Part shown: piece after piece, positions 22,381 to 44,724 of the stretch
Layout of the letters: each line of letters opens with the position of its first letter
How positions within the stretch are numbered: position 1 is the stretch's first letter
Origin: Anaerolineae bacterium
GTDB lineage: Bacteria; Chloroflexota; Anaerolineae; B4-G1; SLSP01
Reading direction: 5' to 3'
Assembly (NCBI GenBank): GCA_026991395.1
Contig: JALXBP010000097.1
Span: 1-48,884, forward strand
DNA length: 48,884 nucleotides
Translations under genes and position numbers: made by a program
The notes under the pieces: model-generated
What the model was told of the DNA's origin: nothing
Databases searched by the model: none
Seen by the model: only the letters and a program-made list of their open reading frames with translations

Positions 22381-25300
22381 TCAGGGGCACTGCGTGATGG
22401 TGATCTCGTCCGCGTAGAGCGCCGCCGTTTCGGCGTCCCCGTCGTTCTTCACGCCCACGTAGAGCGTAACCGTCTGCCCGGCGTAGGCCCCGAGATCGAA
22501 GGTGTGGGCCGTCCAGTTGCGCGTATCCTCGAGAGCACTGTAGAGGGTATGCGAAGCCCCGTCGGCATCGCGCACGATGACGTACTGGAGGTCGTCTTCC
22601 GCCTCTTCCGCCAGCGGGTAGAGCCAGAGCGAAAGGCGCAGCGTGCCGCCCGCGGGAAGCGCCACCGTCCGATAGACGGAACTGTAGAGGAGCGTTCCAC
22701 CTGCCTCGCCGGGGAGGAGGCCCATCTGCACGGCGTAGGTGCCCCCGTGGGCCTGTGCCGTGCTCCGCTCGACGGCGTTGCCGAAGGTCCAGCCATCATC
22801 GCCCGCCTCGAAGTCGCTCTGCAGCACGACCGTGCAGGCGGGTGGCGTCGGCGTGGGCGTGGGGGTGGGCGACGGCAAAGGCGTAGGGGTCGGCGAGGGC
22901 GGCGGCGTGCCCGCTGCCGGAGCATAGCGGCGCAGCGTAACGGGCAAGTAGGCGTGGAACTGGCTCAAGGCGAAGGTGCGGGCGGCGCTCCACGCCCCCT
23001 CGTTGCCCGCGGCATCGACGGCCTGGACCTGCCATCGATGCCCGCCCTCGCGCAGGGGAACGGCGAGCGTGGTCTGCCCCGCCTCGTAATCGACACCGTC
23101 GATGCGCACGCGATAGTGGATCGCGGAGCCGCCGTCGGCGACAGAACTCCAGCGCAGCACCGGGGCGACGGCGACCAGCATCAGCCCGTCCTCCGGCACG
23201 AGGAGAAGCGGCTGCGCAGGCACGACGCTGTCGATCTGGAACGAGGCGGTCTGCACCTCCCCCATCCGTCCGGCGTCGTTCGTCGCGCGGGCGGACAGGC
23301 TGTAGCCCCCGTCCTCCAGCGGAGGGAGGGAATAGCGCCAGTTCGTAGTGCCCTCCGCCACGAGCCAGCGCGCCTCGTCTTGCCAGGCGCTGCCATCCCA
23401 GAAAAGGCCGTCGCTTTCCCGCCGGAGTTGTACCTCGACGCGCACGCTGTTCGCGCTGGCCGTCCCGACCGCCGTCGGCGCGGCGCGATAGGCCCGCCCG
23501 TCGCCGGGCACGGCAATGGCGGCCTCCGCCCCCACGGCACAGGCGTGGAGAGCGTCCAGCGTGCGCTCCATCAGCGGGGCAAGCTGCGCGGGCGGCACCG
23601 TCTCCAGGGGGAAGCCGAAGAGCATCAAACAGTGGCGGCCATCGTCGGTATGCAGAGCCGCCGTCCCGCCGCTGCCGCCGACGTAAGTCAGGGCCGTCCG
23701 CCCTTCGCCATCCGCGGGCGCGATCACATCGGGGCGATCGGCGTCGTACTCCCCCGCCGCATCGAAAGTGAACTCGCCCACGTCGCGCAGCACACCGTCA
23801 TCCGCAGCGACCACGCGGTAGGTACCGGCATCGTCGGCGATGTAACGTGCGTGCAGCGTCCCGCCCAGGAAAGCGGGGGCGGCCCCATCCAGCCACCAGG
23901 CCCACTCGCTGCCGCTGAGGAGGAGGTTGCCGCCGTTATCCAGATAGTCGGCAAGCACCGCCCGCTCTTGGGCGTCGAAGACGCCGTCCACCTGCGCAGC
24001 CTCTTCACCCAGCAGCCAATCGACGACGGCATACCGCCCCAAGTCGAGCTGACGATCGCACACCGCTTCGTTGCTCGCCGCATCCCAGGCATAGCGCCAG
24101 GGGACGGCCTCGCCGTGCGTCACGACGTAATCCCCCCGGTTGATGCGATCCAGCCACATCCGCAGGTTGAACCCCTCCACCGGATCATCGTCCGGCACGA
24201 GGTTAGTGCGGCTCACCCGATCGAAGCCGTTGACGATCAGCAGCGACGGATCGCCCACCCGAAAGCCGAGCACCTCCGTGGGGAAAGATTCGCCGCCGTC
24301 GTTGATCGCCGTAACGTAGAAGTAGCGCACCGCGCCCTGCGGCAGGTCGCTCAGCGTGATGCTCGTCCCCTGCACGGCGATCGGCTCCCCCCAGCCGAAG
24401 CCGTCCTCGCTCAGGTAGAGGCGGTAGGCCGTCGCGGGATCGCCGACCAGCCCCACCCCATCCGTCGGCGACGGCTGCCAGGCGATGCGCACCGCGCCGC
24501 CGCCCAGGTTCTGCGCGTAGAGATGGGTCGGCGGCTCCGGAAGCTCCACCAGGTCCACGCCGTCCTTGCCTTCGAAGTAGTGGACGATGCCCTGGTAGAT
24601 CGCCCGCGCGGCCAGTTGATTGAAGCGCGGCTCCTTCAGGGCGGCGGCATCCTCCGGATTGTCGTGATAGGCAATCTCGACGAGGACGCCGGGGAGGCGA
24701 TTGGCGGGGTTGCCGTCCCAGAGCAGCCGCAGTTCCCCCAGATTGCGCGATCGCCGCCCGCGATCGACCCAGCCCGCATCCCATCCGGCACGGATGTCGT
24801 GGATGAGCTCCGTATGGACGGCACGCTGCAGGTCGGCGCTGCCCGGCGTAACGGGATAGGTGCTGCCGTCGTGGATGTAGGATTCGGTCCCGCGCACCGT
24901 CCCGTTCCAGCCGTTGGTGTGCCAGGAGATGTAGATCGCGTCGGCGGCGAGGCCGCTGTAGCGCCATCGGGCGTACATCGGGCGGGCGACGACATCGTTG
25001 AAATCGTTCCAGTTCTGAGAAGCCCAATCGTCCGGATCGAGCCCCATCCACTGGCTGTAGTAGAAAGTGCAGCTTTCCCACCAGGGGCGGTTCGGCGGCT
25101 GCGAGGCCGTCGTTTCGATGCCGCGCAGATCGTCGAAGAGGCCGCCGCCCAGCCGCAGCGCATCGGCGACGACGTAGGCCCCCGCCGTACCCGACAGGTT
25201 GGAGAGCGTTACGGTCGCCGTCCCCGCGCGGAAGGGGAAGGTGCCGAGATAGCGCCAGGTGGACGGCTGCAGCCGCTGGTCGAGGCGCACCTCGCTCGTC

Positions 25301-26163
25301 CCTCCGGCGTGCCGAACGGTGTAACGGGCATCGGGGGCGCGGTTGGCCGCCGCCGGAATCCAGGCGTAGAGCGCGTAACGCCCGTCCGCCGGGACGGTCA
25401 GCGTCCAGTTGGCGGTCATCGTCCCTCCATCGGTCGAGACGGGGGCAAAGCGATAGTGCGTCCCGTAGCCCTCGCTGGCGCTCTCGACCCAGCCGGGAGC
25501 GCTGAAGCCGCCATCGGTATCGTCCACGATGACGCGGCTCCCGTTCCAGTCCCGCTCGCGCACGGGGATGACGATCGCCCCCGCCCGCTCCAGGTAGGGG
25601 ATGAGGTACTGATCCACCGCCTCGGCGTTGTTGTGATCCTCGACGATCTGCTGGTAAGGCGGGCGCTGTGTCCTCCAGGCGTAGCCGTTCCATTCCCAGC
25701 CGTGTCCGGCGCTGACGAAGATCACCTTGCCCGCCAGGGAGCGGGGGAAAGGCGTTTCCGGCCACGCGGGCCGGATTTTGGCATTCGCGGCGGAGAAGGT
25801 GAGAGGTTCGGGGCTTGCCCCGCCACCCGCGACGTCGGAGAGGGGACGGCACACGCCGTCCGCGTCGGGGGCGAGCACGTGGAGCGTCCGCCAGTCGAGC
25901 GGCGTCAGCGCGTGCGCCACGGCATCCTCGACCGTCTCCACGCCGCTGCCGTTGCGCAATGCCAGCGTATCGCGGGAGACCCGCAGGCAGACGGAAAGCG
26001 TCTCGTCCTCCATCTGCACCGAGACGAGAGGCCACGGCAGGCGGGCGAGCAAAGCGGTCGCCTCGGCCACCGGATCGGGCGGCTGGGCACGGGCCGTCGA
26101 CGGCGGCAGAACGAGTGCTATCAGCACAAAAGCCCCTATGAACCAGCGGTACCCCTTCAACAT
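22381..26163 (-). CDS. Secreted N-acetylmuramoyl-L-alanine amidase with inserted and C-terminal accessory domains
   Basis: The 1260-residue protein has a signal peptide (about 1-26). Amidase_3-type catalytic motifs are split: SAGHG (His154) and the EDHNNAEAV helix (Glu175) come first, then a golvesin/xanthan-lyase-like beta domain is inserted (about 210-340). The second half follows with SWHTN (His415) and LVEIAYHDNP (Glu497). Downstream are a fibronectin III domain (about 545-640), an alpha/beta region without a name (about 645-880), two Ig-like regions, the motif FHAYLPVTLRR, a Thr/Pro linker and a C-terminal beta-sandwich. Amidases of this type cleave the stem peptide from peptidoglycan. 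The ATG at 26163 is chosen for the signal peptide; a start 12 codons upstream is possible. Confidence 0.85.
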   Translation of the reverse strand: MLKGYRWFIGAFVLIALVLPPSTARAQPPDPVAEATALLARLPWPLVSVQMEDETLSVCLRVSRDTLALRNGSGVETVEDAVAHALTPLDWRTLHVLAPDADGVCRPLSDVAGGGASPEPLTFSAANAKIRPAWPETPFPRSLAGKVIFVSAGHGWEWNGYAWRTQRPPYQQIVEDHNNAEAVDQYLIPYLERAGAIVIPVRERDWNGSRVIVDDTDGGFSAPGWVESASEGYGTHYRFAPVSTDGGTMTANWTLTVPADGRYALYAWIPAAANRAPDARYTVRHAGGTSEVRLDQRLQPSTWRYLGTFPFRAGTATVTLSNLSGTAGAYVVADALRLGGGLFDDLRGIETTASQPPNRPWWESCTFYYSQWMGLDPDDWASQNWNDFNDVVARPMYARWRYSGLAADAIYISWHTNGWNGTVRGTESYIHDGSTYPVTPGSADLQRAVHTELIHDIRAGWDAGWVDRGRRSRNLGELRLLWDGNPANRLPGVLVEIAYHDNPEDAAALKEPRFNQLAARAIYQGIVHYFEGKDGVDLVELPEPPTHLYAQNLGGGAVRIAWQPSPTDGVGLVGDPATAYRLYLSEDGFGWGEPIAVQGTSITLSDLPQGAVRYFYVTAINDGGESFPTEVLGFRVGDPSLLIVNGFDRVSRTNLVPDDDPVEGFNLRMWLDRINRGDYVVTHGEAVPWRYAWDAASNEAVCDRQLDLGRYAVVDWLLGEEAAQVDGVFDAQERAVLADYLDNGGNLLLSGSEWAWWLDGAAPAFLGGTLHARYIADDAGTYRVVAADDGVLRDVGEFTFDAAGEYDADRPDVIAPADGEGRTALTYVGGSGGTAALHTDDGRHCLMLFGFPLETVPPAQLAPLMERTLDALHACAVGAEAAIAVPGDGRAYRAAPTAVGTASANSVRVEVQLRRESDGLFWDGSAWQDEARWLVAEGTTNWRYSLPPLEDGGYSLSARATNDAGRMGEVQTASFQIDSVVPAQPLLLVPEDGLMLVAVAPVLRWSSVADGGSAIHYRVRIDGVDYEAGQTTLAVPLREGGHRWQVQAVDAAGNEGAWSAARTFALSQFHAYLPVTLRRYAPAAGTPPPSPTPTPLPSPTPTPTPTPPACTVVLQSDFEAGDDGWTFGNAVERSTAQAHGGTYAVQMGLLPGEAGGTLLYSSVYRTVALPAGGTLRLSLWLYPLAEEAEDDLQYVIVRDADGASHTLYSALEDTRNWTAHTFDLGAYAGQTVTLYVGVKNDGDAETAALYADEITITQCP

Positions 26164-26278
26164 CCTCGACCCCCTTTTTCGCGCTAAGGCAATGAACATC
26201 CCTATGGTACCATCGATGGGGATGGCAAGCGTTTCTATTCCGAAAACAAAAGGGAAAAAGAGAGGGGCCGACCGCCGG

Positions 26279-33320: not shown

Positions 33321-36300
33321 TTAGTGATTGCGCATCACCATCGGGAGATAGACTTCGTAGTGCGGCAGCGCGGTCAGCGAAAGCGTCGCCACCACCGGGT
33401 CGTGATCGGAGGTGCGCCAGACGACCGAAGCATCCTGGGTGTAGGGATAGTAGGGGAAGTCGGCGTTGTAGTGCAGCGGCGAGAAGCCTTCCAGCATAGG
33501 CCGGGCGTGCTCGGAGACGAGGATGTGATCCAGCACCTGCGAGACGCCGCGATAGATGTAGCTGTAACGGGCGCTCTCGTCCAGCGAATACCAGGTGCTC
33601 GTCAGCACGCCACCGGCATAGATCGCCTCCAGCGGCGGCGAGTCCTCGAAGTCGTTGAGATCGCCCATCATAATGATATTCGGTGTCGTCGTCACCAGTC
33701 GATCGACGAGGTCGGCGATGAACTGCCCCTGTTCCAGACGACGCTGGTCGGCCGCCGAGCCGCCGTGCTTCGACTTGAAGTGATTGGCAATGACGACGAA
33801 GGTTACGTCCGTACCGCTGTAAGTAACCGTCCCCGTCACGACGACCGGACGGCGGGAGAAGAGCGGGTACTCACCCTGCGCCTGGCATTCGCTCCACATA
33901 TCGTCGTAGTTGGACGAGGGGCTGCCGTAGGCGGAGCAGCTTTGATAGTCGGTTGACCACGTTACATTGCTCACGCGGTCGGTGCGCCAGAGCAGCGCCA
34001 CGCCGTGATTCCCCACGTCCTCGTGAGAGTTGGCGGAATCGTATGTGCAGCCCGCATCGGCCAGCGCGGCCTTCAGCGCCGGAAGCGTGTTGTCCATTTC
34101 GATCTCCTCCAGCGAGAGGAAGATCGGACAGCCCATCTGCACAATCGACTCGACGACCTTCGTCATCTTCGTCCCGCTGGTAACGTCGAAGTTCAGGGTG
34201 TTGAATGCCCCGACAGTCAGTTGGCTTGCTCCGGCCTCCTCCCATCCGGGCACCGTCGAGGGCGCGGGGCGGCTGTAGACCTCCTGCCAAGGATCACCGG
34301 CCTGTGTCATCATCACGTAGCTGCCATACGTATAGGCCAGCGGCCCGTCGGCGTTGGTGATCGTGCTGCCGACGATGAGATTGGGCGGATAGGAGCCGTC
34401 ATCCAGCCTGCCGTAGAGCTTGTAGTGCCGCACACCGACCGGCATACCGGCCTGCGGGCTCGTGCGCAGGATATGGCCGTCATCCTGCGGGCTGACCGTC
34501 GAGGGGACCACCTGCACCGTGTTGTAGCTCGTCGGGCCGACGACCGTCGCCGTCGCCGTCAGCGGCATCGCGACGAGCATCCCCTCCAGGCTCTCCCAGT
34601 AGGTGATGGCCGCCGTCGGGCTCATCGGCGGCGCGAGGGTCAGAGGCGCAGGTCGCCCTATCTCCCCCAACGCGACGACGTCGCCGGGATCGGCCATGAT
34701 GCTCGTCATACAGCTATCCTCGGCACAGCCGGTGCCGTCCCACTCGTTGAACTCCGCCACCGTCCCCGTAACGACGACCAGATCGCCGATCTGCGCCGAG
34801 ACGGTGCCGCTGCCGTAGTTGACGAAGACGGCATCGGAGGTAGCAGCATCGCCATCCCCGTTCGTATCCTGGAGGAAGAGGCCGTTGAAGTTACCGACGT
34901 TGTTGGAGTTGCCCTCGAAGAAGCCCACGACGACGCCGCACGAGGTTACCGTATCGCCGATCTTCGGCGAGCGCATACCGCTGCCCTGGATTTCGTAAGC
35001 CGGTGTGTACCCGGCAGGGCAGAAGCTGCGGATGGTGGTCACGACGGCGGAACCGGTCTCGTGCGTCGTCCACTCCGTCGCCCAGGCGGCGTAGTGCGCA
35101 TTGATGATCTCGTCGCCGACGGAGCCGGTCGCCGTGACCACGAAATGCACCGTCGCTGTCTCGTCATCGGCGAGGGAAGCCACCGTCCAGGTGATGAGGC
35201 CGCCGCTTTCCGTTCCGCCGTCCAGCACCTGCGCAAGCGTCGCATTCGCCGTCGGCACGACATCGGTGATGGTCAGATTCGTCAGAGAGAGACCGGTGTG
35301 ATTCCACACGGAGATGGTGTAGGTGAAGGCATGATCCTCGAAGACACCGGCGGGAGCCGCCTTGCTCACGAAGAGGCCGGGCAGGAGAACAATGTCGCTC
35401 TGCTGACGCGGCTTGATCTCGTGAGTCGAGTAGTACAACTCCGCAATGCCGGTTACGGCGTAGGACCTGCCGACCATATCGTCGGTGAGGACGGTGCCGG
35501 TATTCTTGTCCACATAGACGGTCGCTGTGTAGGTGCCGTCGCTGACCCAGAATTTGTAGTAGTAGGTGGATTCGTAGAAGTCGGTAACCGGCCCCTGGAT
35601 GCGCACCAGCCAGCCGATGGCGTCATCGTCATCGTCCACCTCGTTGATCGCCTTTTCCAGCGGTGCGGGCGCTTGGTCGGGCGTCCCGGCGGTAACCTGG
35701 ACAGCGCTGCTGTCGGCGGGCTGGACCTGTACCTCGCCGCGGTAGTTGGCCATCGTGCCGGTTACGGTAACCAGATCGCCGATGGCTACATGGGGATCGA
35801 AGCCGAAGCACTGGACGGCGACGCCGCCAGTCGAATCCTGGATGTAGAACTTGGCGTTCCCGCCACCGGCGTAGAAGCCGCCGGTGTACATCGTCGCCCG
35901 TCCGGCGACGGTCACGGTCGTGCCTGCGCTCAGGCCGCGGGCCGTCCCGATAGGCGTTACCGTCCCCGCGGGGGGTGTGATCTGCGTCGAAACGGCGCTT
36001 CCCGTCGCGGTCGTCACCCAGTCCGAGGCGTTGACGCCGTAGCTGTCGTTGACGATCGTCAGGCCGCTGGTGGCAGGAGCCGTGACGGTGAAGTAGCGCG
36101 TTGCGACCGCATCGGTTACCATCGTGGCGATCGTCCAGGAAACGACGCCGTTGACCAACGTCCCGCCATCGGAGGCCGCGACGAAGGTCGTGCTCAGCGG
36201 CACGACGTCGGTGATGACCACGCCGGTGCGCTCGCCGCCCGTGCCGTTCGTCACCTGCAGGGTGTAGGAATAGCTCTCGGAAGCGACCACCTCCGCCGGA

Positions 36301-36986
36301 GCGCTCTTGGTGATGGAGAAGGCGCCGCCCCCTCCGGCGGGCGTGTAGCTTCCCAGATCATCCAGACTGTCCGACGGGTAGGAATCCCACGCCACGGAAG
36401 CATCGAAAGTATCGGAAGGGTCCGTGTCGCCCGTCGTGACGGAGGTCTTGCGCCGCAGGGTAACATTCGCGCCCCAGATGCCGAGGTCGCCAATCTGCCC
36501 CAGCGAATCGACAACCGCCGAGCCGTGCTTGAGCACGAGAGCATCGTTGCCGTTGAAGCCGGTTACGGAGTCGTTGGTGAGATCGACTTCAGAACTGTCA
36601 TCGATCCCCGAATGGGCGATCACATAGACATCGCCATCATCCAGGGAACCGCTGAGCGTTACCGACGCCGTGGCCGAACTGCTGCCGTTGGCGTACAGTT
36701 CCACCGTGTACTGGCTGAGATCGACAGCAGCGCCCGTCCCGTTGAAGATCTCCAGCGCCTTGTTATTCCCGCTGCCCTCCACGTACTCGCTGAAGAGAAG
36801 ATCGCTGTAGGCAGCATCCACTTTCGAGGGCGGAGATACCTCGAAGGACGGCAAGGGAGCCATCGGTCCGAAAGGCACCGCGTGGCTCCCCGGCGCTGCC
36901 GCCGAAACGCCCATCGGCAGCGTCGCAGAGAAGAGCGACACAACGAAAAGAAAAGCCATGCTGACGTTGACAAACTTCTTACTCAT
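33321..36986 (-). CDS. Secreted multidomain nuclease (ExeM/NucH-type endonuclease-exonuclease-phosphatase)
   Basis: The 1221-residue protein has a signal peptide (about 1-30), a lamin-tail domain (about 60-210: LLFSEYVEGSGNNKALEIFN), two DUF11-like repeats (about 225-335, 540-650) and OB-fold-like regions between and after them (about 345-535, 670-790). The C-terminal endonuclease/exonuclease/phosphatase domain (about 920-1205) keeps its catalytic points: EE (961-962), NH (1068-1069), GDLND (1108-1112) and SDHDPV (1193-1198). Such enzymes degrade extracellular DNA, for nutrition or biofilm turnover. The protein ends EVYLPMVMRNH. The ATG at 36986 follows AAGGAGG. Codon context differs from the housekeeping genes (more GTSAC). 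Confidence 0.88.
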   Translation of the reverse strand: MSKKFVNVSMAFLFVVSLFSATLPMGVSAAAPGSHAVPFGPMAPLPSFEVSPPSKVDAAYSDLLFSEYVEGSGNNKALEIFNGTGAAVDLSQYTVELYANGSSSATASVTLSGSLDDGDVYVIAHSGIDDSSEVDLTNDSVTGFNGNDALVLKHGSAVVDSLGQIGDLGIWGANVTLRRKTSVTTGDTDPSDTFDASVAWDSYPSDSLDDLGSYTPAGGGGAFSITKSAPAEVVASESYSYTLQVTNGTGGERTGVVITDVVPLSTTFVAASDGGTLVNGVVSWTIATMVTDAVATRYFTVTAPATSGLTIVNDSYGVNASDWVTTATGSAVSTQITPPAGTVTPIGTARGLSAGTTVTVAGRATMYTGGFYAGGGNAKFYIQDSTGGVAVQCFGFDPHVAIGDLVTVTGTMANYRGEVQVQPADSSAVQVTAGTPDQAPAPLEKAINEVDDDDDAIGWLVRIQGPVTDFYESTYYYKFWVSDGTYTATVYVDKNTGTVLTDDMVGRSYAVTGIAELYYSTHEIKPRQQSDIVLLPGLFVSKAAPAGVFEDHAFTYTISVWNHTGLSLTNLTITDVVPTANATLAQVLDGGTESGGLITWTVASLADDETATVHFVVTATGSVGDEIINAHYAAWATEWTTHETGSAVVTTIRSFCPAGYTPAYEIQGSGMRSPKIGDTVTSCGVVVGFFEGNSNNVGNFNGLFLQDTNGDGDAATSDAVFVNYGSGTVSAQIGDLVVVTGTVAEFNEWDGTGCAEDSCMTSIMADPGDVVALGEIGRPAPLTLAPPMSPTAAITYWESLEGMLVAMPLTATATVVGPTSYNTVQVVPSTVSPQDDGHILRTSPQAGMPVGVRHYKLYGRLDDGSYPPNLIVGSTITNADGPLAYTYGSYVMMTQAGDPWQEVYSRPAPSTVPGWEEAGASQLTVGAFNTLNFDVTSGTKMTKVVESIVQMGCPIFLSLEEIEMDNTLPALKAALADAGCTYDSANSHEDVGNHGVALLWRTDRVSNVTWSTDYQSCSAYGSPSSNYDDMWSECQAQGEYPLFSRRPVVVTGTVTYSGTDVTFVVIANHFKSKHGGSAADQRRLEQGQFIADLVDRLVTTTPNIIMMGDLNDFEDSPPLEAIYAGGVLTSTWYSLDESARYSYIYRGVSQVLDHILVSEHARPMLEGFSPLHYNADFPYYPYTQDASVVWRTSDHDPVVATLSLTALPHYEVYLPMVMRNH

Positions 36987-37021
36987 CGAAACCTCCTTAG
37001 GCGTGCTGGAATGAACTTACA

Positions 37022-37037
37022 TCCATCGAACGATGGA
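37022..37037. repeat. Palindrome TCCATCG-AA-CGATGGA in nuclease gene leader
   Basis: A 7+7 bp inverted repeat with AA centre lies between the promoter and start codon of the nuclease gene. It could be an operator or an mRNA hairpin. CCATCGATGG, a related 10 bp palindrome, lies at 26210-26219 before the amidase gene. Confidence 0.45.
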
Positions 37038-37063
37038 AACAGAGTCCCCAGGCCAAGAAGAAT

Positions 37064-37092
37064 AGTATACCTACTTTATCGGGAGATACCAA
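37064..37092 (-). promoter_or_regulatory. Promoter of the extracellular nuclease gene
   Basis: On the reverse strand TTGGTA (37092-37087) and TATACT (37069-37064) are separated by 17 bp. The leader is about 70 nt. It is divergent from the beta-helix promoter. Confidence 0.52.
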
Positions 37093-37116
37093 ATCGTCGC
37101 GAAAATCATCCCTCCC

Positions 37117-37145
37117 TTCAACAGCCACTCCACCTATGCTATACT
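37117..37145 (+). promoter_or_regulatory. Promoter of the beta-helix protein gene
   Basis: TTCAAC (37117-37122) and the extended -10 TGC-TATACT (37137-37145) are separated by 17 bp. The leader is about 88 nt, with a GAGGAGG at 37152-37158 that has no matching start. Confidence 0.52.
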
Positions 37146-37239
37146 GATTGTGAGGAGGTTCTCGTCGGCAACGTCAAGCCCCCCTTTCACCGTGCAGCAG
37201 CCAGAGGATAATGATTTCCACATTCCTAAGGAGGTACAG

Positions 37240-39207
37240 ATGAACCGACGCTATGCAGCCATCAGCTTCGTACTTGCAGGAGCCTTGCTGTGGGGCATCC
37301 TGCTCATGCTCTCCGGCCCCTTCAGCGAGACGACGACGATCTACGCTCGATCAGCAGCTATCACGCCCACCCCGACGCCACATCTTGGGCCGGCCTTCGT
37401 CAAACCGGGCGGCACGGGGCTGGCCTGCGAGCAGGCCGATCCTTGCGGTTCCGTCCAGATGGCCATCGACCGGGCCATCGCCGGAGGCTGGGGGGATACC
37501 ATCTACATCGCAGGCGGCACCTATACCGGCACCGGCACCTCCGTCATCACCATCTCCAAACCCGTTACCCTCTATGGGGGATGGGACGGCGCGCCAACCG
37601 GACCGGTGGTGCGCGATCCCGACGCCTACCCCTCCGTGCTGGACGGGGAAGGGCAACGACGTGTCGTCTACATCTACCGTGACATCACCACGACGCTGGA
37701 CGGCCTGGTCATCGCGCACGGGAATGCAACCGGCCTCCCCTATTACGAGGGGCAGGGCGGCGGCATCCTGAGCGAGGATGCCACGCCGATCATCGTCAAC
37801 TGCCTCATCACCAACAATGTCGCCTACGCAGGGAACGGTACGATAAGCGGCGCAGGCGGGGGGATGCGGATCGTCGCCCCGCGCGGCACGGCCGTGATCA
37901 GCGGCAACCGCATCCTCTCCAACACCGCCAGCCTGCGCACCCTCGGCGGAGGAGGAGGTATCGATCTGCTCAGCGCGCCCCACGCTCAGGTGATGAACAA
38001 TCTCATCCTCAGCAACACGGCGGCGGTTTCCGCCACCAACGGCTACGGCGGCGGCCTCGCCATTGACGGCAACAGTCAAGGGGCCATCGTCTCCGGGAAT
38101 CGGATCGAGGGCAATGTCGCCCTCGTCAACTGCAGCGGCTCCTGTTACGGAGGGGGCTATGGCGGCGGGATCGACACAGGCAGCTCGGCGGTAACCATCA
38201 CCCACAATGAGATCCTGAGCAACGTCGCCGTCATCACCGGCACCACGGGGATGGGAGGCGGGATCAGCATCTTGGGCGGCGACGACGTCGTCATCGAGGA
38301 CAACAGGGTGGAGCACAACGTCGCCCAGCAGCAGGCTCGCAACATCCCCAGCAACAGGGGCGGCGGGATCTACGCTATGAGCAATGAGAACCTCCTCATC
38401 CGTGGCAACACCATCCGCGACAACACCGCCAGCTTCTTCTACACCGGTGCCGGCGGCGGAATCTACCTAAGCTCGTGCTCCAAAGCCACCGTCGCTCACA
38501 ATCGCATCGAAAGGAATCGCGCTTCCGTAGAGGGCAACGGCTACGGCGGCGGCTTCCACGCTTACGCCAGCCGCGGCCTGCGGATCGAGGCCAACGACAT
38601 CGTCAGCAACACGGCCACGGACGCCCCGTGGGGACGCGGGGGCGGCCTCTATTTCTCCCGCAGAACTTCCTTCACAATGACCAACAACATCGTAGCGAAC
38701 AACAACGCGACGCGGGAGGGCGGCGGCGTGGCCTTCGAAAGCAATGCCTCCCAGCCGGTTACGGGGACGATGGTCTTCAACACCTTTATGGCCAACAACA
38801 CTCAGAGCGGTGGCACGGAAAGCACGGCCATTCATCTCAACGATCCCTACGTGACGCTGGTGCTGACCAACAACCTCATCTACAGCCACACCTACGGCCT
38901 CTACGCTATCGCCGGGACCACGGCGACCCTCCACACCACCCTCTTCTACGCCAATAGCGACGGCGACATCGCCGGAAGCGGAACCATCACCAACACTGCC
39001 CCGCTCACCGGCAGCGACCCGATGCTGACCGCCGATGGGCATCTCCACTCCGGCTCACCGGCCATCGATGCAGCGGTCGAGATACCTTGGGTTACCGACG
39101 ACATCGACGGTCATCGCCGTCCTTACGGGCCGGCACCCGACATCGGCGCAGACGAGTTCGCCCTCCACATGCTCTATCTGCCGCTCGTGCTGAAGAGAAC
39201 GCCGTAG
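37240..39207 (+). CDS. Secreted right-handed beta-helix protein
   Basis: The 655-residue protein has a signal peptide or anchor (about 1-36), a short Thr/Pro spacer and the entry motif FVKPGGTGLACEQADPCGSVQMAI (about 53-76), which starts many 'polymorphic' beta-helix proteins. About ten to twelve parallel beta-helix turns follow, rich in N-x-I-x-x-N and GGGI/GGGL repeats (about 170-560). It ends with DIGADEF, the usual close of choice-of-anchor Q domains, then LYLPLVLKRTP. Beta-helix proteins often bind or cleave polysaccharide, but no catalytic motif is evident, so surface display or binding is as likely. The ATG at 37240 follows AAGGAGG. A strong terminator follows. Confidence 0.83.
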   Translation: MNRRYAAISFVLAGALLWGILLMLSGPFSETTTIYARSAAITPTPTPHLGPAFVKPGGTGLACEQADPCGSVQMAIDRAIAGGWGDTIYIAGGTYTGTGTSVITISKPVTLYGGWDGAPTGPVVRDPDAYPSVLDGEGQRRVVYIYRDITTTLDGLVIAHGNATGLPYYEGQGGGILSEDATPIIVNCLITNNVAYAGNGTISGAGGGMRIVAPRGTAVISGNRILSNTASLRTLGGGGGIDLLSAPHAQVMNNLILSNTAAVSATNGYGGGLAIDGNSQGAIVSGNRIEGNVALVNCSGSCYGGGYGGGIDTGSSAVTITHNEILSNVAVITGTTGMGGGISILGGDDVVIEDNRVEHNVAQQQARNIPSNRGGGIYAMSNENLLIRGNTIRDNTASFFYTGAGGGIYLSSCSKATVAHNRIERNRASVEGNGYGGGFHAYASRGLRIEANDIVSNTATDAPWGRGGGLYFSRRTSFTMTNNIVANNNATREGGGVAFESNASQPVTGTMVFNTFMANNTQSGGTESTAIHLNDPYVTLVLTNNLIYSHTYGLYAIAGTTATLHTTLFYANSDGDIAGSGTITNTAPLTGSDPMLTADGHLHSGSPAIDAAVEIPWVTDDIDGHRRPYGPAPDIGADEFALHMLYLPLVLKRTP

Positions 39208-39224
39208 AGCACCCAAGGATGCAT

Positions 39225-39262
39225 CACAAAGGCCGCCCGTACTCAGACAGGCGGCCTTTGTG
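39225..39262. terminator. Terminator after beta-helix gene, likely bidirectional
   Basis: CACAAAGGCCGCC (39225-39237) and GGCGGCCTTTGTG (39250-39262) form a perfect 13 bp stem with a 12 nt loop. The GC core is followed by TTTG on either strand. Confidence 0.75.
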
Positions 39263-39270
39263 GAACTATC

Positions 39271-39295
39271 GAGACGGTGCGGGATGCACCGTCTC
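39271..39295 (-). terminator. Hairpin after the 1806-residue protein gene
   Basis: GAGACGGTGC (39295-39286, reverse strand) pairs with GCACCGTCTC (39280-39271), loop ATCCC. No uridine run follows directly, but the next hairpin (39225-39262) can complete termination. Confidence 0.5.
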
Positions 39296-39303
39296 GATCT
39301 GAC

Positions 39304-42300
39304 TTAGTGGTTGCGCATGATCAGCGGCATGAAGATGTCGCTGCCCACCGTCATCGTCACAGGGATGAAGATGGAGCGAGAAAGCGGGTCGCTGGTGACA
39401 AGCTGTAACGTGGCCGTGTACACACCCGCGCTCATCCCGGCCGCATCGAAGGTGATGCTGATGGGAAGGATGTTCCCCACGTCCACCGTCCCCGTGATGG
39501 GCGTCTCGGAAAGCCACGGGACATCGGGGGCACTGCAGTCCATCGGCGCGCCAGGCGCAGCGAAACAGAGTGCCATCGAGTCGGTCAGGACGGCCGTGTC
39601 GCAGTGATAGCTCAGCCCCTGCGTCCCGTCCGCATTCTCGATGCCCGTCGTCGAACCGGAACCTTGCTCGGCGCCCGCGTCCTTGAACTGGATGAGGACG
39701 CTGCCATAGTCGAAGAGGATGGCCTGGAACGTTCCGGCAACATTGCCGCCGTAGTGATGGTAGTCGTCATACTCGACGACCAGGCACGCCCCTTGACCAC
39801 CATAGGGGCAGGTGGAGAAGCTCTGGTAGTAGACGAGGTCGTGCGTAGAATTGGGGTTGAGGTCATCCCACATCAGCGCGATGAGGTTGTTAGGCGGGGC
39901 GCTATTGGGAAGCGGGCACTGGTTGGAGTAAGCCGTCGAGCCGCCGCCGAAGGTAAGGAAGCCGTTGCTGTTGACATAGATGTCGCTGTAGGTGTTGCCG
40001 TAGAAGGGGAAGTCGAAGCCGATGGAGAAAGGCCCTGCCGAAGCATCATCCCCCAAGGCGATCGTGATGGGGGCCGTCGGGGTGATCTCGATCCAGTTGT
40101 AAACAGGGCCACCGCTCGCACCGGAGACGGAGACGGTGTAGTCGGTACCGGCGCTGGGAGGCATCTCGTGAAGCTGGAAAGTGTAGGAGAGATGGCCGCT
40201 GTTAGAGAGCGTAAGGGTCTGCGTCAGCATCTCGTCCGGCATCATCGCCACATCGAAAGCCTGCGGCGTATGCTCCGGACAGGGCTGGATCACCTCTAAC
40301 GTGACGTTGTGCGTCGTTGTCTGCTGCTGCGTCACGGTGATCTGCGTCGTCTGAGAGAGGTGCCCATCCGCGGAGACGGTTACGGTGTAGCTGCCCGCCG
40401 CCATCCACCAGGCGTAGCTGCCATCGCTCTCCGTCGTCAGGGTGTACGTCTCGGCTCCTTGGACGAGAACCTGCGCCCCATCCAGCGGCGCGTAGGCCGT
40501 GCCACAGTGCCCGCTGCTGCTGACGACACCGGTGATCTTGCCCCAGGTATCGGGCGGGAGCACCGTCATCGTCACAGGCACGGTATCGAGGCTGTAAGGC
40601 GTCTGTTCAAGCACCTTCAGGCGAGCATAGTAGGTCCCGGGCTGAGCAACCTGCCCCGCATCGAAGGTTACAGAAACGGGCACCGACGAAGAGGCCGCAA
40701 CCGTGCCACTCACCGGCGACTCGGCCAGCCACGGCACATCTATCGCTCCACCTGTGGCAAAGGCCAGACCATCGACCTCGGCCCCGCTGGGGAAGGCCCC
40801 GACCAGCGCCGTATTGCCCGTCGAGGTATCGGCGATACGCAGTTCGCCCTGCCCGCTGTCGTTGTTGTACGCCGCCAGGTAGAGGACGCCGGACGTCTCC
40901 TCGAAGTCCATCCCTTGAGCGTAGTTGGCGTTGAAACCGACGGAGCCGATAACAGTCCCCGCTCCCGTCGCCGGGTCGATCCTGATGAGGTTGTCACCCA
41001 CAAGATCGAGACCGTACATTTCCTGCCCCGTAGCGTCGGTTGCGATAGCGATGATGCAGGGAGCATTGGTGATCTCGCCGATCTCCGTCAGGGCGGCGGT
41101 CTCCGGATCGAGTGTATAGAGGGTGCTGTGGCTGCCGCAGTTGGTCGAAGCGACGTAGAGCGTCCCATCGGGCGACCCGGCCATTCCGGTCCACGCCTCC
41201 CCGCCACTGGCCGTGACCGAACCGACGGCCGTCGCGGCCCCCGTTGCCGTATCGACGGTGAAGAGCTGGTTGCTGCTGTAGTCGAGCATGTAGAGCGTGC
41301 TGAAATCCCCGTAGAGGAAGTCGGCCGCGAAGGGAGCACCGGAGATGCTGCCGATAACATTCCAGGAGCCGGGCGCAGTGGTATCGGTGATGAAGACGAG
41401 GTCGCTGCCCGGATAGATGTCGAAGGCGAAGGCCGGCTCACCGGCGAGCGGCGCCAGATCGAAGCCCTGGCCGCCGACATACTGTGCCGACGGAGCGCGC
41501 TCCATCGAGGGCGGCGTGTGGTCGAAGTGCGGCGCTGCAGGCGGCAGCGCGATGGGCGCATAGACCTGCATCCCGCGATCCATCTCGAGCAGCTCAAAGG
41601 GCGTGGAGACGGATCCACTGTTGCTCAGCGTCCAGGTCGTGGTGACGACCTCCCCCATCTCCAGGGTGGCCGAGAGAGTCTTCGGCGCGTAGTCCAGCAT
41701 CCCTGCCGGCAGGTAGAAGTCCTGGGAAATGGTGCTGCTCTGCACCGGCGTAACGCTCACCACGTCGGGAGCATACCCGCCGCCGTGCGTAGCGGTCATC
41801 GTATGCGTCCCGGTGGGGAGGAAGAGGGTGTAGAAAGCGTCATCCACCTGAGGATCGGGCGTTGCAGCACTCGTGACATGGGAACCGCTGTCGCTCTCGA
41901 CGTTGCTACCGGCAAGCGCGAGGTTCGTGTTCTCGTCGTAGGTGTTGCCGACGACCAGACCACCGGGCTGGAGCGCACAACCGGGATCCCCGATCTGAAC
42001 ATCGTCAACTTCCCAGTACCAATCATAGTTCGCATTGTAGTAGTGGAAGCGCACCATCACATTGGCGTGACCGCCCGCGATCGAGGAAATGTCCACGACG
42101 GCCGTCTTCGGCCCGCGGTCATCAGCACCACTGCGATGCCACACATTGGTCCACGTCGTCCCGCCGTCGTTGCTCACATCGACGTCGGCGACCTCAACAT
42201 CGCTGTAGGAGTTGAAGTCGTATTTGAACTGCAGCGTGACAGAGGGCACCGAACTGAAGTCCATCAGGGGCGTGCGCAGCTCGGTATCCATATCGACACC

Positions 42301-44724
42301 ACCGGCGTGGTCACTATCGGCGATGGCGAAGTTACCCTCACCACCGGTATTGTTGCTGCGCCCACCGGGGTTGTCAAAGGCCCACACAGCGCCCGTCCCG
42401 GCATTGTCGATCACCGTCCAGCCATCGGGGATCGTCGTCGCGTCGAAGGTCTCCCGCAAGCCACTGGACATACCATACCCCGGAGCCGTACACGCCGTCA
42501 TATCGGCGGTCAAGGTGATGTTCACCGTCTGATCGGCGGTAAGCGGAGGAATCTCCACCGAGGCCGCGTTATACCCCGAAGCCCACGGGCTCACGTGCAG
42601 CGTGTACGTGATGCCGGAGGCCAGGGTTACGCTGTAGAAGCCGGAGACCGGATCGTTCCAGAAGTCGCCGATGGAAGAAGGCGGCGAGACAGGATCACCA
42701 TCGATGGTGATGTGAGCGTAGAGCGGCCAACCGGCCATCGCGTCGGTCACGGTCCCGGAGATGACGTAGCTGGTCGTCGCCGTCATCGGGATGTTGACCG
42801 TTGTCGTGGTCCCGGAGACGACGCTCACTCCCGCGATCGTTGTCGGCAGATAGCCGTAGGTCGCCGCGGAAAGCGTGTAGGTCCCGGTCGGCAGGATGAA
42901 GGTATACGCCCCATCTTGGCCGCTGGCCGTATGATAGGTAACCGTCGGCGAGGAAGCCGCGTAGATATCGGCCTGGGCGATGGGATCACTCGCGGGAGAA
43001 CCGGAAGCATCATAGACGATACCCTCGATCGTGCCGTGAGGCCCTAACACACAGTTGGGGAACTTGAAGGAGCCGATGCGTGTCTGCCATGGAGCAGTAC
43101 CGGTTGTAGCGTAGTACTCCTGCGTGTACCAGAAGGTACAGTCATCGACAGGATCGACACCCATCATACTGTAGTCGCCCCAGCGGCCATAGCCGCTCTC
43201 CTGATAGCCGCTGCCTGCGACGATCTCCCCCTCCCCTTGCGGCAGCGTGCCGAGCGGGTCCCCGGCCAGACGTCCGGCATAGCGGACGGAGGGATAGACC
43301 GAGGCGGAGGAGACGCTGTACCCTAACGCCGTGTTGCCCACGTGGTCAACGGCGATGCTTCCCATCCAGCGATGGTCGGCATCGGGGGCAAAGATGCCCT
43401 CCTGATACATCGCCCAGCCGCTCCCCGTATTGCGCAGCTCGAACCAGTGGATGCCGGCGTGGTCACTCCCATCGACATCCACCGTGTGGTTGGAAACCAG
43501 GGTCTGGTAACCGCCGAAGTTGCGGTACTGGACACGGTACATCAGGCGGTCGGCGATGGCATCGAGTGCCGTGCCACCGGGCTGCGGGATACAGTTGCGA
43601 CTGCCGCCGCACATATCGGGATCGACATCCTGCGTCTGGATGATGTAGTTCGGATCGCCGTTGACGCCGAAGGTGGAGTTGGAGGGCGTATCCCAGTCCA
43701 CGTGGAACTCCCAGACGCGCAGCGCATCATTCGGCCCGATCCAACTGCTGTCGTCCCATTCGACGAAAAGGCCCGGAGCACCGTTCGGTGGAGGCGTCAT
43801 TCCGTCGAAATCGGCGGGGAGCATACCGCCATAGTCGGCGCTCACCGGCTGCAGGTCGAAGTAGACGAACGTCCCCGCACTGCCGTTGAGCATCGACTCG
43901 CGGTCGAAGGCCCACACACCGGCCCCACCCCAGGAGGAGCCGTTGGTGAACTGGTTGGCCGTCATATAGTAAGCATCCGGCCAGACGCCGAAGTGCGGGT
44001 AGTCGTTCATCTTCGTATCGTGGACCTGGTAGGTGTAGGCGTACCACTCACCCAGCGGATCGTTGCTCTTGGAGACGGCGATACATTGATAGTAGGGACC
44101 GTTGGGGAAGTTGGGCAGCGCGAACTGGCTCAGCATCCAGCGATCGGCCAGTTGATCGTAGAGGACGATGGGATCGCCGTCGTTGGAATTACAAGGATCA
44201 CCGCTGGGCCAGAGGGAGCCCAGTGAGAAGCTCTGCACCAGGTTCCCCGTCGACTTCTCGTAGATGCCGATGATCGTCGCATTGACGGACTGGATGTAGT
44301 AAGTACGCCCGACATCGCCGTTCGTGTCCGGAGGGAGCACGCCGGTCGTATTGCTCAACCCCTCGAAGCTCATCAACGGGGCCGGCATAGCCGTCGGCGC
44401 TCCCATCCAGTCCTGATAGGCGGGATGCAGTTGCTCAGGCCCAAGCGCTCCGTGGGGGCGAGGAATGGGGAGGAAGGGAATCTCCCGTCCCTTTTTCGCC
44501 GCCACGACGGCCTTGGGCTCCGGCAGGGAGCGGACCGGAGCGGACACACCATGATAGACATCATGGCCTACGACCGGGCGCAGAGGTGATGGAGGCCCCT
44601 CGACCGCCGATTCGCTCATCATCCGTGGGCCAGGTGCCGTGGCCTGGATGGGAGCGAAGGGGCCGAGCAGCAGAACCATCGTCATAGCCAGGCCGACGAT
44701 ATGCATGAAGCCTTTGCGGTTCAT
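39304..44724 (-). CDS. Giant secreted multidomain protein (1806 residues)
   Basis: After a signal peptide (about 1-30) an N-terminal domain (about 115-555) begins LPPDTNGDVGRTYYIQSVN, a recurring secreted-protein domain. Two carboxypeptidase-regulatory-like domains (about 563-745), an immune-inhibitor/MAM-like sandwich (about 750-915), another regulatory-like domain, and Ig-like 'LSNSG' segments (near 1010 and 1530) follow. Between the latter lie a beta-propeller-like region (about 1090-1370) and a nidogen-like part near 1590-1730. It ends IFMPLIMRNH. No protease or glycosidase active site is evident, so adhesion or surface structure is the best guess. The ATG at 44724 follows AAGGAGAG. It shows the highest density of GTSAC pentamers in the window. 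Confidence 0.82.
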   Translation of the reverse strand: MNRKGFMHIVGLAMTMVLLLGPFAPIQATAPGPRMMSESAVEGPPSPLRPVVGHDVYHGVSAPVRSLPEPKAVVAAKKGREIPFLPIPRPHGALGPEQLHPAYQDWMGAPTAMPAPLMSFEGLSNTTGVLPPDTNGDVGRTYYIQSVNATIIGIYEKSTGNLVQSFSLGSLWPSGDPCNSNDGDPIVLYDQLADRWMLSQFALPNFPNGPYYQCIAVSKSNDPLGEWYAYTYQVHDTKMNDYPHFGVWPDAYYMTANQFTNGSSWGGAGVWAFDRESMLNGSAGTFVYFDLQPVSADYGGMLPADFDGMTPPPNGAPGLFVEWDDSSWIGPNDALRVWEFHVDWDTPSNSTFGVNGDPNYIIQTQDVDPDMCGGSRNCIPQPGGTALDAIADRLMYRVQYRNFGGYQTLVSNHTVDVDGSDHAGIHWFELRNTGSGWAMYQEGIFAPDADHRWMGSIAVDHVGNTALGYSVSSASVYPSVRYAGRLAGDPLGTLPQGEGEIVAGSGYQESGYGRWGDYSMMGVDPVDDCTFWYTQEYYATTGTAPWQTRIGSFKFPNCVLGPHGTIEGIVYDASGSPASDPIAQADIYAASSPTVTYHTASGQDGAYTFILPTGTYTLSAATYGYLPTTIAGVSVVSGTTTTVNIPMTATTSYVISGTVTDAMAGWPLYAHITIDGDPVSPPSSIGDFWNDPVSGFYSVTLASGITYTLHVSPWASGYNAASVEIPPLTADQTVNITLTADMTACTAPGYGMSSGLRETFDATTIPDGWTVIDNAGTGAVWAFDNPGGRSNNTGGEGNFAIADSDHAGGVDMDTELRTPLMDFSSVPSVTLQFKYDFNSYSDVEVADVDVSNDGGTTWTNVWHRSGADDRGPKTAVVDISSIAGGHANVMVRFHYYNANYDWYWEVDDVQIGDPGCALQPGGLVVGNTYDENTNLALAGSNVESDSGSHVTSAATPDPQVDDAFYTLFLPTGTHTMTATHGGGYAPDVVSVTPVQSSTISQDFYLPAGMLDYAPKTLSATLEMGEVVTTTWTLSNSGSVSTPFELLEMDRGMQVYAPIALPPAAPHFDHTPPSMERAPSAQYVGGQGFDLAPLAGEPAFAFDIYPGSDLVFITDTTAPGSWNVIGSISGAPFAADFLYGDFSTLYMLDYSSNQLFTVDTATGAATAVGSVTASGGEAWTGMAGSPDGTLYVASTNCGSHSTLYTLDPETAALTEIGEITNAPCIIAIATDATGQEMYGLDLVGDNLIRIDPATGAGTVIGSVGFNANYAQGMDFEETSGVLYLAAYNNDSGQGELRIADTSTGNTALVGAFPSGAEVDGLAFATGGAIDVPWLAESPVSGTVAASSSVPVSVTFDAGQVAQPGTYYARLKVLEQTPYSLDTVPVTMTVLPPDTWGKITGVVSSSGHCGTAYAPLDGAQVLVQGAETYTLTTESDGSYAWWMAAGSYTVTVSADGHLSQTTQITVTQQQTTTHNVTLEVIQPCPEHTPQAFDVAMMPDEMLTQTLTLSNSGHLSYTFQLHEMPPSAGTDYTVSVSGASGGPVYNWIEITPTAPITIALGDDASAGPFSIGFDFPFYGNTYSDIYVNSNGFLTFGGGSTAYSNQCPLPNSAPPNNLIALMWDDLNPNSTHDLVYYQSFSTCPYGGQGACLVVEYDDYHHYGGNVAGTFQAILFDYGSVLIQFKDAGAEQGSGSTTGIENADGTQGLSYHCDTAVLTDSMALCFAAPGAPMDCSAPDVPWLSETPITGTVDVGNILPISITFDAAGMSAGVYTATLQLVTSDPLSRSIFIPVTMTVGSDIFMPLIMRNH

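Follow-up and report, generated by a model that had tools for sequence, protein, structure and literature searches.

Many proteins exported by an Anaerolineae bacterium (phylum Chloroflexota) end in the same ultrashort motif, the YLP box, which is probably a sorting or retention signal. Its consensus, taken from the translated surroundings of matches in about 35 proteins of this genome, is [R/K]-h-[Y/F]-L-P-L-V-h-[R/K] with a stop codon 0–3 residues further on (position preferences R/K - L/V/I - Y(F) - L - P - L - V - L/M/I - R/K). The motif is known as an annotation, since NCBIfam 20.0 contains two models, NF050076 (sort_motif_YLP) and NF053834 (ultrashort_CTERM), both named 'YLP-box putative sorting motif-containing protein', that describe the same 10–11 residue motif. 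Their names say nothing about N-terminal or interdomain copies or about a partner, and a literature search found no paper describing the YLP-box motif. The new observations are that the tag has no transmembrane helix, unlike sortase or exosortase tags; that the box also occurs directly after signal peptides or between domains; that an exosortase reader is excluded and the distribution of ordinary sortase does not follow that of the box; and that peptidases of family C25 (the gingipain/PorU family) co-occur with the box and usually carry it.

The window (the whole stretch of DNA that was analyzed, 48,884 nucleotides) encodes three large exported proteins that end in the box, and an amidase with a weaker internal copy:

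22381..26199, minus strand: exported multidomain Amidase_3 protein (Golvesin_C, fn3, Big_13), with a MAM/choice-of-anchor-J-like C-terminal domain after the linker
22927..22959, minus strand: probable internal YLP-box-like sequence FHAYLPVTLRR at the junction of the Ig-like region and the Thr/Pro linker (weak, 10.5 bits; no NCBIfam match)
33321..36986, minus strand: exported ExeM/NucH-type extracellular endonuclease (signal peptide, lamin-tail, DUF11 repeats, OB-fold, Exo_endo_phos, YLP box)
33324..33356, minus strand: YLP box EVYLPMVMRNH, C-terminal tail of the nuclease (translation; NF050076 and NF053834 matches)
37240..39207, plus strand: exported right-handed beta-helix protein with a choice-of-anchor Q domain (likely ATG at 37240)
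39172..39204, plus strand: YLP box LYLPLVLKRTP, C-terminal tail of the beta-helix protein (translation; 28.7 bits with the tail profile; disordered in the AlphaFold model)
39304..44724, minus strand: exported 1806-residue protein (choice-of-anchor J, CarboxypepD_reg and DUF4394 domains, YLP box)
39307..39336, minus strand: YLP box IFMPLIMRNH, C-terminal tail of the 1806-residue protein (translation; 19.6 bits with the tail profile)

Translation places all three tails immediately 5' of the stop codon, as an earlier note on this DNA had claimed. The last 60 residues of the nuclease match both NF050076 (16.9 bits, cut-off 15) and NF053834 (15.3 bits, cut-off 10), and hmmscan with these two models did not report the beta-helix, 1806-residue and amidase copies. 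The tail profile that scores the first two of these at 28.7 and 19.6 bits was built from the bacterium's own genome and itself includes both. The amidase peptide lies where the earlier note had put it, inside the protein and before the Thr/Pro linker, but its identity as a box did not hold up on score, which is in the chance-level range; the context (an exported protein, with the peptide adjoining a Thr/Pro linker) makes it a plausible YLP box. In the same amidase, Golvesin_C precedes the matched part of Amidase_3, and the choice-of-anchor-J-like domain follows the Thr/Pro linker.

The observation holds far beyond the three proteins. Across the whole genome (2.46 Mb in 153 contigs), a loose DNA pattern gave 53 matches vs 12 when reversed, a tighter pattern 23 vs 0, and the tight pattern followed by a stop codon 17 vs 0; NF050076 has 22 matches at E ≤ 0.3. 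With column-shuffled profiles as the control, exported proteins among 1170 complete genes carry 92 C-terminal copies (0.12 expected), and proteins without a detected signal peptide, as judged by a crude signal detector, carry 20 (0.07 expected). In 240,000 internal positions of the latter proteins there were 5 matches; the box is concentrated at the C-terminal ends of exported proteins. Because the profile was made from tails of this genome and the gene set consists of stretches fetched around matches, the pattern searches provide the unbiased figures. A mobile or copied DNA repeat was rejected as the source, since the matches differ widely in their codons.

About 85,000 species genomes were scanned, and approximately 70 of the 80 matches listed belong to Chloroflexota. 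These matches terminate long frames; of the frames whose start is visible, most have a signal peptide. The listed matches from other phyla that were inspected lie in frames of 12–37 codons or in no tailed frame, and we therefore attribute them to chance. Among the matches listed, the box is specific to Chloroflexota. Inside the phylum it is patchy: the order of the window's bacterium, G011, G214 and several families with 4–7 Mb genomes are box-rich, and most others are near zero. In some families, the protein ends right at the arginine (YLPLVVR-stop).

Signal peptides were found in about 80–82 per cent of tagged complete genes, compared to about 24 per cent of their untagged neighbors. What precedes the box is diverse. 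Consistent with the earlier note's view that the host domains are otherwise unrelated, domain searches found different folds ahead of it: ExeM/NucH nuclease, beta-helix with choice-of-anchor Q, DUF11, PKD-like and Ig-like repeats, as well as C25 peptidases, choice-of-anchor domains and bare Thr/Pro linkers. The linker between the box and the preceding domain is variable, and curated domain profiles stop ahead of the box. Specifically, the nuclease profile is complete (546/546) at residue 1203 of 1221, with the box at residues 1209–1218, and 15 residues separate the end of the choice-of-anchor Q domain from the C-terminus of the beta-helix protein. In an AlphaFold model of the C-terminal 340 residues of the latter protein (12-sequence alignment; mean pLDDT of 82), the last 23 residues have pLDDT below 50 and essentially no strand; pLDDT is about 27–35 in the tail vs 82–97 in most of the helix body.

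These data bear on the suggestion that the box just forms the final beta-strand of a domain or assembly unit shared by its hosts. Alternating residues, a high beta propensity and a position that in most cases ends a domain would suit such a strand. Against it stand the unrelated folds, the early ends of the domain profiles, the variable linker and the predicted disorder, which removes this reading for the beta-helix protein, as well as boxes that follow signal peptides or lie inside a Thr/Pro linker (L125, L202). The unrelated preceding domains and the disordered tail therefore refute a last strand, to which we give very little credence, and favor a sorting tag. Taken as a group, the sorting, anchoring and processing readings of the earlier note agree with the C-terminal position in exported proteins, the unrelated folds and the disordered tail, and NCBI curators arrived at a sorting motif independently (NF050076, NF053834).

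In nearly all C-terminal copies, the stop codon follows 0–3 residues past the R/K, leaving no transmembrane helix after the motif. Only 1 of 95 tagged proteins has a C-terminal transmembrane anchor, vs 12 of 155 untagged non-polytopic exported proteins (P = 0.02). The signals of sortases, exosortases and rhombosortases are tripartite, consisting of a motif, a transmembrane helix and a basic cluster (PMC11980579). LPXTG, PEP-CTERM, GlyGly-CTERM and MYXO-CTERM resemble the YLP box in being short terminal motifs on many unrelated exported proteins, with a basic end and attachment to choice-of-anchor domains; the YLP box differs from them in having only about seven hydrophobic residues and no transmembrane helix, in occurring also away from the C-terminus, and in the absence of exosortase.

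To compare candidate machinery, we used a discovery set of 34 genomes (18 box-bearing and 16 box-poor). Exosortase exceeded the cut-off in 1 of the 34 genomes, and none was above it in the window's genome. Sortase, which is common in the phylum, occurs in 17/18 box-bearing and 12/16 box-poor genomes (P = 0.16) and is absent from G168, which has six boxes. By phylogenetic profile, both enzymes were rejected as readers of the box. A signal for an enzyme of the sortase, exosortase or rhombosortase type, for which the Leu-Pro core with a basic end offers a superficial likeness, is the most improbable of the explanations considered here, given these profiles, the missing helix and a separate LxxTG-plus-helix protein within the group (L157).

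The distribution of C25 peptidases is different. They are present in 16/18 box-bearing vs 0/16 box-poor genomes (P = 7e-8) and, at the family level, in 7/9 vs 0/13 (P = 2e-4), in a test made post hoc, after a tagged C25 peptidase was noticed, in which phylogenetic non-independence is only partly handled. The association was replicated in the remaining 266 of 300 sampled genomes, with C25 in 14/23 box-bearing genomes (net pattern count of at least 3, by hand tally) vs 24/243 others (P = 5e-8). C25 is a co-occurring peptidase of the kind that the earlier note had proposed to look for. S8 proteases were tried as a control for secretome richness and rejected: their presence does not discriminate (18/18 vs 14/16), and their copy number, too, rises with the box count (Spearman correlation of 0.60, vs 0.82 for C25). 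Where the end of a C25 protein is visible, it usually bears the box, and because the peptidases are themselves tagged, they could be either cargo or machinery. Across box-bearing Chloroflexota, C25 proteins are widespread and have many YLP-like ends, some of them degenerate, such as ALPLVQR-stop and YLPITRR-stop (G000:C2 [L056], L246, L253–L282).

Chloroflexota are regarded as a single-membrane phylum. A PorU-like C25 peptidase might cleave YLP-box proteins, or transpeptidate them onto a surface moiety, as a counterpart of the final type IX secretion step in cells with one membrane. The type IX system resembles the YLP box in placing a C-terminal signal on diverse cargo and in the co-occurrence of a C25 peptidase that usually carries the signal itself: PorU is the type IX sortase and is also listed as type IX cargo (PMC5445135). 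However, the type IX C-terminal domain is folded and conserved and belongs to a system with two membranes (PMC5445135), whereas the YLP box is a tail of about 10 residues that is predicted to be disordered. The two-sample co-occurrence and the tagged C25 proteins are what such processing would lead one to expect, but C25 may be merely a favorite cargo, N-terminal copies of the box misfit C-terminal processing, and the test was post hoc. G276 speaks against an obligate role, as it has 12 boxes but lacks C25. The discovery set had looked perfectly nested, but about 24 out-of-sample genomes with C25 have few boxes by the pattern used, and for this reason we do not claim C25 as the reader of the tag. 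Overall, we consider C25 processing improbable.

Copies away from the C-terminus show that a strictly terminal tag is an incomplete picture. Strong copies of the box directly follow the signal peptide in two S8 proteases from two genera, one of the window's own genome (L070) and one of the same order (L232, in G192). Other mature N-terminal copies are found in L062, L194, L212 and its own-genome homolog L054, and the Tat-type L091; interdomain copies are found in L227, L176, L230, L246, L076, L047 and L202, the last within a Thr/Pro linker like that of L125. At 14 bits, exported proteins have 4 copies in the N-terminal zone (0.15 expected) and 11 at internal positions (0.58 expected). L054 and L212, which come from two families, are exported homologs of very large size (about 2000 and 1600 residues), and both have a box-like stretch close to the start of the mature protein. 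PMC11980579 cites one archaeosortase substrate whose signal is internal, and internal copies alone are therefore compatible with processing; the mature N-terminal copies are a better fit to a docking peptide.

We put at about even the chance that the YLP box is an ultrashort linear sorting or retention signal by which exported proteins are docked to a putative envelope receptor. The N-terminal signal peptide, which is evident from sequence, would take the protein out of the cytoplasm. The box would then protrude from the folded part on a flexible segment, as suggested by the prediction for one protein and by the varied preceding sequences, and an envelope component outside the membrane may bind the extended peptide and hold the protein at the cell surface. 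Docking of this kind would not require a transmembrane helix, and the peptide could function at the C-terminus, at the mature N-terminus or between domains. That the box acts by non-covalent docking and not by cleavage is a proposition we rate at slightly under even. The near-invariant proline and the basic ends would equally suit a protease or transpeptidase site, and the N-terminal copies are few; both points count against the docking model.

Around the tagged genes, we found no recurrent non-cargo neighbor resembling machinery, and this also counts against the docking model. The neighbor clusters are made up of cargo families, BTAD regulators, a conserved exported protein that lacks the tag, and frames that are probably shadow frames. 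The box might alternatively be an escort or quality-control signal that guides proteins through a dedicated device for export or assembly, or shields their ends from extracellular proteases, without anchoring them. Occurrence at either terminus, the large adhesin-like or hydrolytic nature of many cargoes, and the conserved untagged exported protein adjoining some of them are in line with this reading; a protease cap, however, would not need a near-invariant Tyr-Leu-Pro core, and no co-occurring device appeared in the data examined. We regard the escort reading as unlikely, to the same degree as C25 processing.

Returning to docking, we offer a more far-reaching version only tentatively: a new sorting system in which a 10-residue, helix-free and position-independent docking peptide has a dedicated envelope receptor, possibly serviced by tagged C25 peptidases in a PorU-like step without the type IX apparatus. 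Known bacterial surface-sorting tags depend on a transmembrane helix or a folded domain, and a 10-residue tag at either end of dozens of exported proteins would, if this is true, be the smallest such signal. It would also explain how bacteria of hot springs and biofilms hold secreted enzymes and adhesins at their surface, and would offer a simple handle for surface display of proteins. The occurrence at either end and the association with C25 make the mechanism of this catalogued motif directly testable.

One gene pair recurs in the data. The 'AFTYQGRLL' protein, which is exported and untagged (36 copies in 20 genomes/loci), adjoins a YLP-tagged protein of about 100 residues at L040, L041 and L077 (all three in the window's own genome) and at L084, L094, L140, L143, L146 and L225, with a BTAD-type regulator adjoining in several loci. 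The tagged member of the pair is weakly similar to NF058579, the CPR-type pilus protein PamT.
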